Positions 7,776-24,393 of a stretch of 62,017 nt of DNA are shown in pieces. The DNA is from an uncultured delta proteobacterium (lineage in GTDB: Bacteria; Desulfobacterota; Syntrophia; Syntrophales; Smithellaceae), in the NCBI GenBank assembly GCA_903907985.1, contig CAIVQG010000012.1, positions 1 to 62,017 of the forward strand, given 5' to 3'. A program made the translations under genes and the position numbers. The notes beneath the pieces are model-generated. The model made no database searches. It had not been told where the DNA came from and saw nothing but the letters and a program-made list of their open reading frames with translations. Each line of letters begins with the position of its first letter. Position 1 is the first letter of the stretch.

Positions 7776-8192
7776 AACAAACTCCCAGTGTCAAATGCCA
7801 TCCAATATCAGGGTAAACCCTATTGCATTGAGCAGCGTGCTTTGTCAATGCTATTATGCAAGATGTCAGGGGAAGAATTATCTTTCTGGAAAATCAATAA
7901 TGGCTTAATCAGGCGGGAAAAAACAAAAGCGAGAGCCGCTTATGCCGTCTTGTCTTTTTGCTGGAGTCCCTCATTTAACAGTCGGTCTTTTAAGGGTGAT
8001 AATCACCACGAAGACCCTGTAATTTTCTTTTATGTTAACATCCAGTAGAATAGACTCAATACGTGCATCGCAGCTCTCGCCGGATTAAATTGTCTTAAAG
8101 TATTATCTGCCCGGTTATAATTTCAGCAAGTTGCTTCCAAATTGCTTTAATTCCTGGTCGGTAAGTACCCATAAAACATTTGGTTACTGATC
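7776..8192. other. Gene-free stretch between the hypothetical gene and csp
   Basis: No convincing coding region, repeat or strong hairpin is visible here. An open frame on the plus strand has atypical composition and no ribosome site, so it is not called. Confidence 0.4.
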
Positions 8193-8393
8193 TTAAAGTT
8201 TGCGAACATTCTCCGCGGCCGGACCTTTTTGACCGGCGACAACGTCAAAGCTGACCCGTTCACCTTCGGCCAGAGATTTGAAACCTTCTCCCTGAATCGC
8301 GGAATGATGGACGAAAAGATCGTTGCCACCTTCCTGTTGTATAAAGCCAAACCCCTTTGAATCATTAAACCACTTCACTGTTCCTTCTGCCAT
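8193..8393 (-). CDS. Cold-shock domain protein (CspA family)
   Basis: A 66-residue single cold-shock domain, an OB-fold RNA/ssDNA chaperone. The RNP1-like K-G-F-G-F-I and RNP2-like D-L-F-V-H-H-S-A-I motifs are intact and the length is standard. The start is supported by a strong AGGAGGG seven to eight bases upstream. Its promoter candidate is at 8437-8465, giving a leader of about 37 nt that contains a GGTTCC/GGAACC hairpin. A separate hairpin-terminator unit lies further upstream (8494-8603) and may belong to a longer csp leader. Confidence 0.96.
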
Positions 8394-8436
8394 TTTCTAA
8401 CCCTCCTTCGTATTGGGTTCCTTCTGGGAACCATTT

Positions 8437-8465
8437 AAAATATCGCCGATTTATTCGGCTGCCAA
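8437..8465 (-). promoter_or_regulatory. Predicted sigma-70 promoter of csp
   Basis: On the minus strand the -35 box TTGGCA (8460-8465) is separated by exactly 17 bp from the -10 box TATTTT (8437-8442). The spacer contains a small inverted repeat, GCCGA/TCGGC. Transcription would start near 8430. Confidence 0.5.
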
Positions 8466-8493
8466 TCTGTGCGCTCAAAAAACGCACTTCCTC

Positions 8494-8603
8494 ATAAAAA
8501 TAAAAATCCCTGTCACATCGCAATGGACAGGGATGGGAGATTCATTTTTACTTCCCTACATCAGGGAGGAAACGTATTCATTTTCGAAGTCGATCACATT
8601 GTT
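8494..8603 (-). ncRNA. Candidate small RNA or attenuator leader upstream of csp
   Basis: On the minus strand a promoter-like pair (TTGATT at 8632-8637, TAAACT at 8610-8615, 16-bp spacer) is followed by about 70 nt and then an intrinsic terminator. The terminator stem is formed by 8526-8534 and 8506-8514 (ATCCCTGTC/GACAGGGAT, nine perfect pairs), and the T-rich tail is the complement of 8494-8505. Just before it, a small hairpin (TCCCT/AGGGA, 8567-8553) could re-pair with the terminator's 5' arm to form an antiterminator. No protein-coding gene precedes this terminator on the minus strand, so it either ends a roughly 105-nt RNA or controls read-through into csp. Confidence 0.35.
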
Positions 8604-8639
8604 GGTAACAGTTTACTCTAATTTCCAATAAAATCAAGG

Positions 8640-9070
8640 TATATTATACATTATTTTTAGCAGTAGATTTACTTTGTAATTGCCTAATGATTATGGACGC
8701 AAATATTAACTTACTGGTATCGCCGGCTGGGTCTCTGATGATATAAAAAATAAGTAATCATAATAATTAATTAACTCTAATATGGTGCTGTCCCGGCTGT
8801 TTTCCGGCCGGCAAATACTGCATCTGTGTCTCCAATAAGTCCCATCCGTAATATCCGCTTGGGATGAGTATTTACCGCTTTTGACCGGAAGGCAAATAAG
8901 GAATTTCTGAAGATTGAAGCAATTTAAATTATATTAGGGGCAGCTGGCAAAGCATTATTTCGGTAAGCTTCGACAATTTATGCTTGCTCATTTTTTTCAT
9001 TGACCAAATGACGTTTTCCCGATACGTTCCCGGCACAAAAAATATTAAGTATTTAAAAGGTAAACTGAAT
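8640..9070. other. Gene-free stretch upstream of the FabH-like gene
   Basis: An AT-rich region with no gene. It contains a TATAAT-like sequence on the minus strand around 8641-8650 and a weak CATCC/GGATG hairpin near 8845-8870. I cannot assign a function. Confidence 0.35.
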
Positions 9071-10210
9071 ATGTCAACAAATTCGTTCCCTAAGATCGTC
9101 ATCAGTGGTTCGGGAGTTTGGACTCCATCGAATGTCATTACCAATGAGGAGCTGGTTGCCAGCTATAATGAATATGCGGCAAAGTTCAATTCCGATCATG
9201 CAGCCCAAATAGCAGAAGGAAAAATGGCGGAAAAGCCGTTTTCCAGTGAGCGATTTATAGAGAAATCTTCCGGCATAAAAGCCCGGTATGTTTATGCCAA
9301 GGAAGGTATTCTGGATATAGAGCGCATGCGGCCGAAGTTTCCCGAAAGAAGCGAGGATGAGCTGAGCAATCAGGCGGAAATCGCGGTTTATGCAGCAAAA
9401 GAAGCAATGGCTGCCGCCGGGAAAACCGCCTCCGATATTGATGCCATTATCGTCTCCTGTGCTTATACTCAGCGGGCTTATCCGGCCATTGCCATTGAAG
9501 TTCAGCATGCACTGGGGATTGAGAATGGCTTTGGATTTGACATGCAGGTGGCGTGCTCAGCGGCGACCTTCGGTCTTCACCGGGCATATGACGCTCTTGT
9601 GTCCGGTTCGGCTAAATGTGTTTTAGCCATCAACCCGGAACTGGTTACTCCCCAGGTAAATTATTGCGACCGGGATACACATTTCATTTTTGGCGATGTA
9701 AGCACGGCCATCATCATGGAGCGGCAGGAAACCTGCACTAGCCCGAACAGTTATGAGATTTTGAGCACAAAAGCGCTGACTCGATTTTCCAATAATATAC
9801 GTTCCAATTTCGGGCATATGTCGCGGGCTACTGATGCCGAACCATATGCGTGGGACAAGCTGTTTCATCAGTCCGGGCGGAAGGTATTTGAAGAAGTCAG
9901 TCCGGTCGCCGCCGGTCTGATTAACGACCATCTGGCAAGTCTCGGATTAACGCCTAAAAACGTAAAACGGTTCTGGCTGCATCAGGCAAACATCAATATG
10001 AACAAGATGGTGATAAAACAACTTCTTGGTGAGGACGTTAAGGATGAAGATACCCCGATTATCCTCGACCGGTATGCCAATACGGCATCCGCCGGGTCAA
10101 TCATCGCTTTTCATCTGCACAATAGCGATCTAAAAAAGGATGATATCGGCGTGATCTGTTCCTTTGGAGCAGGGTATTCCGTGGGTAGTTTAGTATTGCG
10201 CAAACGGTAA
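9071..10210 (+). CDS. Beta-ketoacyl-ACP synthase III family protein (FabH-like)
   Basis: A 379-residue thiolase-fold condensing enzyme, expected to join an acyl-CoA primer to malonyl-ACP. The catalytic Cys lies in Q-V-A-C-S-A-A-T-F-G, the His in W-L-H-Q-A-N-I-N and the Asn in Y-A-N-T-A-S-A-G-S, in the correct order for FabH. It is about 50 residues longer than E. coli FabH, with an insert near residues 25-75 seen in a distinct proteobacterial subfamily of long KAS III enzymes. The start ATG 9071 fits the family N-terminus (P-K-I-V-I-S-G-S-G); an upstream in-frame ATG is ignored. A metallophosphoesterase gene follows after 15 bp. No other fatty-acid genes are near, so a special primer or a branched role is possible. 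Confidence 0.88.
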   Translation: MSTNSFPKIVISGSGVWTPSNVITNEELVASYNEYAAKFNSDHAAQIAEGKMAEKPFSSERFIEKSSGIKARYVYAKEGILDIERMRPKFPERSEDELSNQAEIAVYAAKEAMAAAGKTASDIDAIIVSCAYTQRAYPAIAIEVQHALGIENGFGFDMQVACSAATFGLHRAYDALVSGSAKCVLAINPELVTPQVNYCDRDTHFIFGDVSTAIIMERQETCTSPNSYEILSTKALTRFSNNIRSNFGHMSRATDAEPYAWDKLFHQSGRKVFEEVSPVAAGLINDHLASLGLTPKNVKRFWLHQANINMNKMVIKQLLGEDVKDEDTPIILDRYANTASAGSIIAFHLHNSDLKKDDIGVICSFGAGYSVGSLVLRKR

Positions 10211-21395: not shown

Positions 21396-21755
21396 ATGTC
21401 CCTTTACTCAAACAAAGTAAGTCGCCCTGCCGGCGATTCACTGACAACATGGAAGGCTATTATGGCCAGTGGTATGTGTGAAATAATGGAAACGGCTTGT
21501 CGGGGAATGCTGGATTATACGTTTCTGGGCGGCGCCCAAATTGATATGTACTGGAATTTCAACTCGACGAGAGTTGGTACCGACCATCAAAAACCGAAAG
21601 TCCGTTTTCCCGGCAGCGTCGGTGCTAACGACTTTGCTTCCTTCTGCTGGCGCATGATGGTCATGACACCGCTGGATTCCAAGCGCTTTGTAGAAAAGGT
21701 GAGTTACTGCTTGCGTGATGTTATTGATCCCTATCGTTATGTAATCGGTAGATAA
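21396..21755 (+). pseudogene. CoA-transferase subunit B (GctB-like) fragment
   Basis: 119 residues match only the middle of glutaconate/3-oxoacid CoA-transferase B subunits: D-Y-x-F-L-G-G-A-Q-I-D-x-Y, N-S-T, K-P-K-V-R-F-P-G-S-x-G-A-N-D and R-F-V-E-K-V. Full-length subunits are about 250 residues. Here the N-terminal domain is absent, the family's usual N-I-N-S-T reads N-F-N-S-T with W for G before it, and the C-terminus diverges abruptly after F-V-E-K-V. No A subunit lies nearby. It is best read as a decayed remnant of an acyl-CoA metabolism locus, matching the acyl-CoA dehydrogenase relic at 31.0-31.4 kb. Confidence 0.6.
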
Positions 21756-21853: not shown

Positions 21854-22861
21854 TCATTTATTTAAATCAACAAGCAGACGCCCGCGAACTCTACCGGCAA
21901 CAATATCGGCTGCTGCCGCCGGTAAATCGCTAAGTGATATGGCCTTGGAATTAATTGCTTCCAGAGCTTTGGCCGGAAGATCTTTAGCCAGACGCTTCCA
22001 GGCGATTTTACGTTTCTCAATGGGGCACATAACAGAATCCACTCCGCGTAAACTGACTCCGCGCAAAATAAAGGGCATAACCGTTGTGGTTAAATCGAAC
22101 CCGCCGGCAAGTCCGCAATTGGCAATGCAACCCAGGTAATCCATTTCGGCTAGAACCCGGGAGAGGACTTTACTTCCTACGGTATCTATTGCTCCCATCC
22201 AGCGCTGGGTTTCCAGCGGTCGGGGGAGCTCATTCCACTGCGGCCCTCCCACAAATTCCGTTGCACCAAGAGAGCGCAAATAGTCGTGCGTGTTTTCCTG
22301 CCCGGGAGCAGTAAGTGCCGCAACACGATAGCCCAGCGACCCCAGAATGGCGACAGCAATACTCCCCACACCGCCGGACGCGCCGGTGACCAGAACGGTT
22401 CCTTTATCCGGGGTAATTCCTGCTTCTTCCAGGGTCATAACACAGAGCATTGCCGTAAAACCGGCTGTTCCGATCATCATCGTCATTTTTGTGTCCATCC
22501 CTTCCGGAAGGGGAACAAGCCATTCTGATTTGACGCTGGCTTTCTGTGTATAGCCGCCCCAGTAACGCTCACCGACACTCCAACCGGTCAGAACAACCTT
22601 ATCGCCTCTTTTATAAAGAGGAGATAAAGATTCCAGGACGGTTCCGGACAAATCGATTCCCGGTACCATTGGAAACTCGCGGACAATTTTACCAACGCCG
22701 GCAATAGCCATGCCGTCTTTATAATTTAAAGATGAATAATCTACCGCCACAAGAACATCCCCTTCGGGCAGATCATCAACAGTCAGGTTCTCGATGGCAT
22801 GACTGGTTTTACTATCTTCTTGTCTTAATACGAGCGCTTTGAATGTTTCTTTGGACATCAT
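21854..22861 (-). CDS. acuI: Acrylyl-CoA reductase (AcuI/YhdH family)
   Basis: 335 residues of the zinc-free MDR family, NADPH-dependent. AcuI reduces acryloyl-CoA to propionyl-CoA; YhdH is its E. coli counterpart. Marks are S-S-L-N-Y-K-D-G-M-A near residue 43, P-G-I-D-L-S-G-T-V and the Rossmann block V-L-V-T-G-A-S-G-G-V-G-S-I-A near residue 157. The start overlaps the stop of the upstream OsmC-like selenoprotein gene by four bases (ATGA), so the two are translationally coupled. This suggests a shared role in detoxifying electrophiles such as acryloyl-CoA or peroxides. Confidence 0.9.
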   Translation of the reverse strand: MMSKETFKALVLRQEDSKTSHAIENLTVDDLPEGDVLVAVDYSSLNYKDGMAIAGVGKIVREFPMVPGIDLSGTVLESLSPLYKRGDKVVLTGWSVGERYWGGYTQKASVKSEWLVPLPEGMDTKMTMMIGTAGFTAMLCVMTLEEAGITPDKGTVLVTGASGGVGSIAVAILGSLGYRVAALTAPGQENTHDYLRSLGATEFVGGPQWNELPRPLETQRWMGAIDTVGSKVLSRVLAEMDYLGCIANCGLAGGFDLTTTVMPFILRGVSLRGVDSVMCPIEKRKIAWKRLAKDLPAKALEAINSKAISLSDLPAAAADIVAGRVRGRLLVDLNK

Positions 22862-23340
22862 AATTTCTCCTTCCTGATGATATCTTCGATTACCAGATTA
22901 TCTTTAATATCAATACATCCGATTATGCTTTGTGCGGCGGGGCATAATTTTATATAAGATGAAAAAACTTCTTCTGCCTCATCGTTTTTTTCCGCCGGTA
23001 TTTTTAGATGATATGTAACTCGAATTTTTGTGATTTTCAGGACATTGCTTATATTTTCAACATCACCTTCGACATCTGCCCAGTAGCGGTCTTCAAATGT
23101 TGCAATTTTTTTCCCGGCCAGTCCCGCGGCCAGCGTTCCCATCATTCAGGCGGCCGTCGCTGCGATAATATGGTCGAGGGTAGCAGCATGTTCCACTTCC
23201 GGTTCAACCTTATAAAATTTTTTTATTCCACCGTGGACTCCATAATAGACGGGTTCATTAAATCCCTCAATTAATGCCTTTCTTGTCGGCCCCTTTTCTC
23301 GAACAATCTTAATCTTGGATACATGGACAATTTCTCCCAT
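22858..23340 (-). CDS. OsmC-family protein with in-frame UGA (predicted selenoprotein)
   Basis: Reading the TGA at 23146-23148 as selenocysteine gives one 160-residue OsmC-like protein instead of two half-ORFs of 64 and 95 residues in the same frame. The UGA codon is residue 65, in A-A-T-A-A-U-M-M-G, precisely where OsmC/Ohr proteins carry their peroxidatic Cys. The second family Cys is present as L-C-P at residue 133, with a further Cys at 142. OsmC proteins reduce organic or inorganic hydroperoxides using thiols. A bSECIS-like hairpin follows the UGA. The gene overlaps acuI by four bases. The alternative, a nonsense mutation exactly at the catalytic Cys with both halves perfectly kept, is less likely. 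Confidence 0.82.
23114..23148 (-). promoter_or_regulatory. Bacterial SECIS-like hairpin after the UGA codon
   Basis: On the minus strand, 12 nt after the UGA (23148-23146), CUGGCC (23133-23128) pairs with GGCCGG (23119-23114, one G-U). It encloses the eight-base loop GCGGGACU, which begins with G. Distance and loop fit the general bSECIS rule (apical loop roughly 16-37 nt past the UGA with a G among its first bases), which SelB recognises. Confidence 0.6.
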
Positions 23341-23469: not shown

Positions 23470-24393
23470 TTACACTGTTTTAGTTTTTCTCTGGTAATAG
23501 TAGCGAAGCGGTATAACAAGGCCGAAGAAGGGGATCACATACATAGCAGCGACCAATGGTTCCACAGGGCCGAAAAACTGCGAGGAAAAAACAATTACCA
23601 ATACATAATTCATGTTTCCCAACATGATTGTGCCGGCCACTTGATTTTCCACCGAACTTTTCCGGAAAAAGAAAATTCCAATGACATAATATATGACCGA
23701 CAGCACAATGGCCACGACAGTTGCCATAATTATAATGTGGGGTTCTTTTTTGAAAAAAGGCGCATATCGGCAGAAAACACCCAGATTGATAACGGCAAAG
23801 AGCGCTAGAGAAATGGGAAACTGCCTTTTCATTAAAGGTGCGAGCAAGCCGGGTGTCAGGCGTCGCAGTGCCTCAACAGCTAAAATGGGGACAAAAATAA
23901 CCAGCGCCAGCATGCGGATCATGCCGAAAAAAGAAATTTCCACGTGCGAAACGGTGACAATTCGAATGAGGGCAGGTAGCGTGAAGGGCGCCAGGGCCGA
24001 GGTGATGACAACAACGACAAGGACAAGAGAGCTGTTACCTTTTACCATATTAGATATAAACGGAGCCACAACGCCGGTGGATACACCTGTTAAAAGTAAG
24101 GCGGACAGAGCATAAGCCGGGGCAAAATAATTAAAAATAGAAAACAGAATGATAGGCAGAATGAGGAGTTTCATGATTGTGAACATCATAATTTGTCTGC
24201 TATGACCTTTGAGGGCATCCCAGACAGAGATTAGTTCGATGGAAAGAAAACTGAGAAAAAAATTGGCCATCAAACAGTATATGGGCAGAGTTTGGAATAA
24301 AGAACTGAAATCAGGATAAATAATGGCGATGGCCATGGAAGAAAAGATCACAATGACCAGCAGGATATCGTTTACAAGAAATGGTAGTTGCAT
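23470..24393 (-). CDS. BASS/SBF-like transporter family membrane protein
   Basis: 307 residues with about nine to ten hydrophobic segments. The middle region (L-L-L-T-G-V-S-T-G-V-V-A-P-F-I-S-N-M near residue 99, then S-A-L-A-P-F-T-L-P) matches the bile acid:sodium symporter superfamily, in which two crossed helices bind Na+ and a small organic acid. The substrate is unknown. It lies 130 bp upstream of the OsmC-like gene on the same strand and could share its transcript. Confidence 0.72.
   Translation of the reverse strand: MQLPFLVNDILLVIVIFSSMAIAIIYPDFSSLFQTLPIYCLMANFFLSFLSIELISVWDALKGHSRQIMMFTIMKLLILPIILFSIFNYFAPAYALSALLLTGVSTGVVAPFISNMVKGNSSLVLVVVVITSALAPFTLPALIRIVTVSHVEISFFGMIRMLALVIFVPILAVEALRRLTPGLLAPLMKRQFPISLALFAVINLGVFCRYAPFFKKEPHIIIMATVVAIVLSVIYYVIGIFFFRKSSVENQVAGTIMLGNMNYVLVIVFSSQFFGPVEPLVAAMYVIPFFGLVIPLRYYYQRKTKTV

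Follow-up and report, generated by a model that had tools for sequence, protein, structure and literature searches.

Predicted selenocysteine at the reactive-cysteine position of an OsmC-family protein with a UxxG motif

A 62,017-nt stretch of DNA from an uncultured delta proteobacterium of the Smithellaceae (contig CAIVQG010000012.1; hereafter, the window) carries an osmC-like gene with an in-frame UGA, and comparison of related sequences strongly supports its reading as a predicted selenoprotein gene. It is highly probable that the product is a protein of OsmC fold with selenocysteine (Sec) at the position of the reactive Cys, inserted by means of a hairpin, SelB, and tRNA-Sec, which would likely act as an enzyme of the two-Cys peroxidase type.

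The gene lies on the minus strand (22858-23340), with the start codon ATG at 23340, the stop codon TGA at 22860-22858, and a likely ribosome-binding site, GGGAGG, read from the sequence at 23352-23347. The frame is broken only by the UGA at 23148-23146, and when this codon is read as Sec (residue 65), a product of 160 residues is obtained (...DHIIAATAAUMMGTLAAGL...LCPAAQ...). The product matched the Pfam OsmC domain PF02566 (E = 1.4e-9; 38.7 bits, cut-off 27.5), and no match to NCBIfam models was found at 0.001. The initial annotation had joined two half-frames, separated only by this TGA, into one OsmC protein of 160 residues, and its coordinates and residues were confirmed.

Conservation of the UGA was analyzed in 119 genomes, comprising the window's own genome (G000) and related genomes. 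The gene was present in 28 of them, as 28 full-length copies and one fragment (G076), and residue 65 was encoded by UGA in 26 of the full-length copies and by the Cys codon TGC in two. A scan of a genome collection yielded 157 confirmed relatives, of which the best 80 were read and the 77 weaker ones were left out; 78 of these 80 loci had UGA and two had Cys. The two sets overlap, several loci being the same contigs, and the 77 weaker relatives may include a Cys branch. The alignment of homologues proposed in the initial annotation thus gave UGA at nearly every residue 65 and Cys at the rest. Unrelated codons or decay after the UGA were named there as evidence against a selenoprotein; in these relatives, the protein is conserved on both sides of the codon. 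In a sample of the phylum (395 genomes), 37 genomes matched: 35 had a full-length copy with one in-frame TGA, the position of which was not verified gene by gene, G164 had two TGA-bearing pieces on separate contigs, and G305 had a broken piece. That the gene is chimeric or in the course of dying, with a UGA due to nonsense mutation or faulty sequencing, is extremely improbable. Gene loss does occur in the family, as seen from the broken pieces in G076, G305, and G001, but the recurrence of the same UGA in 78 of the best 80 loci with both flanks conserved, together with the single in-frame TGA in each of the 35 full-length matches from the phylum sample, refutes this reading.

At a looser limit, the next relatives in the phylum sample were five stop-free OsmC matches (E = 1e-13 to 6e-12), and all three that were fetched carry Cys. 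The divergent relative from G143 (37% identical) also has a single TGA, which falls in the alignment column of the other UGA codons, and its second Cys is retained. When the 119 genomes were searched for the OsmC domain, eight rows among the listed matches showed TGA, all belonging to the UxxG subfamily described here; the other rows had no stop, except for a partial match with TAA in G008. The titles of the best 80 loci, all of which are metagenome-assembled genomes by title, include Syntrophaceae, Desulfobacterales, 'Deltaproteobacteria', Nitrospiraceae, Acidobacteria, Actinobacteria, Dehalococcoidales, Opitutaceae, Methylomirabilota, and others. Since nearly identical genes (L089 and L098) appear under different phylum names, these titles should be taken with caution, as mis-binning or transfer may be involved. 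No relative of the window protein or the G143 protein was found in a plasmid collection at 1e-3.

The position of the UGA within the OsmC family was determined by profile comparison with ten Cys-type OsmC rows taken from relatives (alignment A3; E = 6e-7, probability 92%). U65 and C133 fall on the two invariant Cys residues of these rows, which supports the claim of the initial annotation that the UGA stands at the catalytic Cys and that the second family Cys, in the L-C-P motif, is kept. Cys133 (22944-22942, minus strand) is present in every row of alignments A1 (28 rows) and A4 (9 rows). D56 faces an invariant Glu of the Cys-type rows (E48 of A3), and this Asp in place of Glu counts against the assignment. 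An AlphaFold2 model with Cys at residue 65 had a pLDDT of 88.9, and its top structural matches were OsmC/Ohr proteins. Foldseek matched 1nye with an E-value of 1.9e-6, the query TM-scores being 0.40-0.55 and the rmsd over 10 among the rows shown, and VIA-align gave a Z-score of 12.7 for 3cje (rmsd 2.3, 123 aligned residues). A sequence-only PDB search with alignment A1 returned nothing at 1e-3. Structural matches to S-adenosylmethionine synthetase (Z of approximately 7) were read as a common arrangement and not as kinship.

The predicted protein thus resembles the Ohr/OsmC thiol peroxidases (PDB 1nye, 1qwi, and 3cje) in fold and, by comparison with the Cys-type profile, in the positions of the reactive residue and the second Cys. 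It differs from them in the predicted Sec in place of Cys, in an additional Cys142 that is invariant in the 28-row alignment and absent in G143, and in sequence, structural alignments giving about 10-20% identity. Organic hydroperoxides are the substrates that OsmC and Ohr reduce. The alignment of U65 and C133, the OsmC-fold model, and the retention of U and the second Cys in G143 suggest that two-Cys peroxide reduction with Sec as the attacking residue is the likeliest chemistry. In this scheme, the hairpin 12 nt downstream would direct the insertion of Sec at the UGA through SelB and tRNA-Sec; the selenolate at residue 65 would attack its substrate, either a peroxide or some other oxidised compound; and Cys133 would then resolve the resulting selenenic acid in the manner of the two-Cys Ohr/OsmC peroxidases. 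The product would then be an oxidative-stress enzyme of anaerobes, its peroxidase function being assigned by analogy.

A predicted bSECIS hairpin was located at 23133-23114 on the minus strand (5' arm 23133-23127, loop 23126-23121, 3' arm 23120-23114). It starts 12 nt after the UGA, at the spacing given in the initial annotation, and comprises seven base pairs, one more than reported there; two are G-U pairs, one of which closes the loop. The loop has six nucleotides (CGGGAC) with G at position 2, and the folding energy was -11.1 kcal/mol over 45 nt and -9.7 kcal/mol for the 20-nt stem-loop. The published bSECIS model requires a loop of 3-9 nt, a stem of 4-16 bp, G in the first two loop positions, a UGA-to-loop distance of 16-37 nt, and a minimum free energy of at most -7.5 (PMC13188914). 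The bSECIS prediction suggested in the initial annotation was run with a test coded here after this model, and the window hairpin fell within its limits (six-nucleotide loop with G at its second position, seven-pair stem, 19 nt from UGA to loop, -9.7 kcal/mol), as did those of 76 of 79 Sec genes (the window gene and the 78 UGA loci among the best 80). Because 151 of 5000 synonymous resamplings of the window sequence alone passed the same test, the hairpin by itself is modest evidence. All seven pairs were formed in 69 of the 79 Sec genes, compared with a mean of 14.8 and a maximum of 21 in 50 synonymous simulations. The codons of the stem were frozen in these genes, with CTG at Leu70 (97%), GCC at Ala71 (96%), CTG at Leu74 (92%), and GCC at Ala75 (95%), and partially at Thr69 and Gly76; in the other Ala and Leu columns compared, the top codon accounted for 35-62% and four to six codons were used. 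Of the stem cells in the 79 Sec genes, 97.3% were able to pair, and the consensus fold gave the same stem. Covariation was weak, three cells being changed on both sides, and is by itself insufficient to prove the stem. The Rfam model SECIS_1 (RF00031) had no match in the window's genome; as it was also silent in all 14 control genomes, this search was uninformative.

The initial annotation had proposed a search for selA, selB, selC, and selD, with the absence of selB or selC counting against a selenoprotein. All four genes were found in the window's genome, with scores of 77.4 bits for tRNA-Sec, 368 bits for SelB, 607 bits for SelA, and 370 bits for SelD; the selD gene has a TGA inside its frame, the place of which within SelD was not verified. 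Among the 119 genomes, SelB was present in all 26 with the osmC UGA and in 84 of the 93 others, a difference that is compatible with the reading and was not significant (p = 0.20). By score, tRNA-Sec was called in 21 of the 26 (not in G012, G046, G094, G098, and G110) and was missing in 15 of the 93 others as well; the missing calls are attributed to incomplete bins and a stricter filter.

Only two Cys genes occurred in the tree, which was built by a quick method with SH-aLRT support only and with residue 65 masked. They form one nested branch among the Sec rows and correspond to one Sec/Cys change. These genes (L069, on the contig of L033, and L074, on the contig of L045) use the Cys codon TGC, and their stem-loop is weakened (-3.9 kcal/mol, compared with a mean of -10.3). 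The pair is best read as a single replacement of Sec by Cys, after which the SECIS decayed. Both a Sec and a Cys copy occur in G041, although this bin is 6% contaminated. A stop-free OsmC-domain gene lies near each Cys copy in the opposite orientation (G022:C5:16887-17171 and G041:C92:1774-2058).

A second tRNA with the anticodon UCA was detected in the window's genome (G000:C40:42026-42118; locus L002, 1501-1593, minus strand; RF01852, 51.8 bits). Read by eye, it has U73 and an 8-pair acceptor stem with one mismatch, and its flanking genes encode a class-V aminotransferase and a TusA-DsrE protein, the latter of which we take to be YedF-like. Such tRNAs recall the selC* tRNA-Cys, reportedly the subject of a primary paper of 2017. 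The selC* tRNA-Cys, some with UCA, have been described for Syntrophobacterales and Desulfobacterales, and the tRNA found here resembles those of delta-proteobacteria in its tRNA-Sec-like shape, U73, and 8-pair acceptor stem (PMC7609411). Unlike the selC*-selB* arrangement, no second SelB was found over the cut-off in the window's genome. A further UCA tRNA was present in 23 of the 119 genomes and in 22 of 51 within the family, the window's genome included; the 23 include G012 and G014, the tRNAs of which are of another make, were not called by ARAGORN, and had their anticodon read by eye, and two of the 22 are likewise of another make. In G092 (C15:7918-9166), a second SelB-like match (8096-9166) comes directly after a UCA tRNA, as has been described for selC*-selB*. 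In G061 (C18; L200) and, twice, in G077 (C14; L199 and L204), tRNA-Sec-shaped tRNAs carry GCA, an anticodon for Cys.

Since the window's genome has this second, selC*-like tRNA, some UGA codons might be read as Cys there. That the osmC UGA of the window's genome is so read, wholly or at low selenium, is nevertheless quite unlikely. The likeness to selC* tRNA-Cys, known from Syntrophobacterales and Desulfobacterales, and the tolerance of the protein for Cys in two relatives speak for such a reading. Against it, no second UCA tRNA was found, at the limit used for the search, in 20 of the 26 genomes with the osmC UGA, and 17 genomes that lack this UGA do contain such a tRNA; it was thus seen in 6 of 26 genomes with and 17 of 93 without the osmC UGA (Fisher's exact test, p = 0.58; within the family, 0.47). 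Moreover, only one SelB match lies over the cut-off in the window's genome, and genes with fixed Cys use TGC and have the weakened hairpin. Cys insertion at this codon is a possible process that is unnecessary to explain the family. The more general proposal, that Syntrophales with both tRNA-Sec and a selC*-like UCA tRNA-Cys place Sec at residue 65 when selenium is available and Cys otherwise, is likewise unlikely.

The initial annotation also placed the gene in an osmC-acuI(-BASS) detoxification unit, a claim that the comparison did not sustain. A gene of the acrylyl-CoA reductase (YhdH/AcuI) family lies downstream of osmC (21854-22861, minus strand; TIGR02823, 434 bits, over the cut-off); its score with the AcuI equivalog model was 423.7 bits, just below the cut-off of 440. 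Upstream, an SBF/BASS-like transporter gene is found (23470-24393, minus strand; Pfam, 22.1 bits, below the cut-off of 24.3). With 4 nt (22861-22858) shared between the end of osmC and the beginning of acuI, and with all three genes in the same orientation, the arrangement would fit a dedicated unit. However, acuI and BASS were found at none of the 80 related loci (best 80 of 157), where over 500 bases were available on the downstream side in 73 and on the upstream side in 75, whereas the osmC control was found at all 80. In addition, two genomes from the same genus (G001 and G003) retain the BASS-like gene followed by acuI (89-90% identical) without osmC, and G002 has neither osmC nor a close acuI. 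A dedicated detoxification unit is thus very unlikely. G001 still shows a match of 73 columns (81%; window 22931-22859) that covers the 3' end of osmC and the start codon of acuI, which indicates that osmC was probably lost there and acuI kept; no osmC remnant was found at the BASS-acuI locus of G003.

At other loci, a rubrerythrin-cluster gene lies within 55 nt 3' of osmC, a flavodoxin-cluster gene 467-680 nt downstream, and a sodium:sulfate-symporter-type gene within 123 nt upstream, each in seven loci and each with Pfam support for one representative. Upstream regulators were of the MarR type in two loci (both Pfam-confirmed) and of the Rrf2 type in three (one confirmed). The rubrerythrin, flavodoxin, MarR, and Rrf2 neighbours are consistent with redox stress and point to no substrate. 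At 21396-21755 on the plus strand of the window, a 119-residue open reading frame matches only positions 83-168 of a 217-position CoA-transferase model and is possibly a gene remnant.

OsmC-like selenoproteins with the motif UxxT were predicted in 2005 in the Sargasso Sea (PMC1088965), bearing out the statement in the initial annotation that surveys had predicted such proteins, and they appear again in the GOS survey of 2008 (PMC2398784) and a 2022 review (PMC9312934). The present proteins share with them the OsmC domain (PF02566/COG1765) and a predicted Sec at a redox position. They differ in having Gly at +3 in all 79 Sec genes and in the divergent G143 gene, and are set apart by this motif. 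Table 1 of a 2026 catalogue of 119 families and subfamilies has OsmC only as UxxT, and in the same source a different Sec motif within one domain is taken to define a separate subfamily (PMC13188914). No word starting with Osm occurs in the main text of a paper about marine Deltaproteobacteria (PMC8318568), and the titles and abstract beginnings from literature searches on OsmC and Syntrophus selenoproteins name no UxxG OsmC selenoprotein. The UxxG motif thus suggests a new predicted subfamily of OsmC selenoproteins. As no NCBIfam model matched and Table 1 of the catalogue has UxxT alone, automated annotation may truncate genes of this kind at the UGA.

In summary, the prokaryotic selenoproteome would gain a widespread subfamily with UGA in nearly all genes examined. 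The conversion of Sec to Cys with a weakening SECIS can be studied directly in this family, including one bin that seemingly holds both copies. Should this UGA also be decoded by the second UCA tRNA, the family would provide a natural setting in which to test whether one codon has two meanings; such a translational fallback to Cys, if true, could also facilitate subsequent conversion to a genuine Cys gene.
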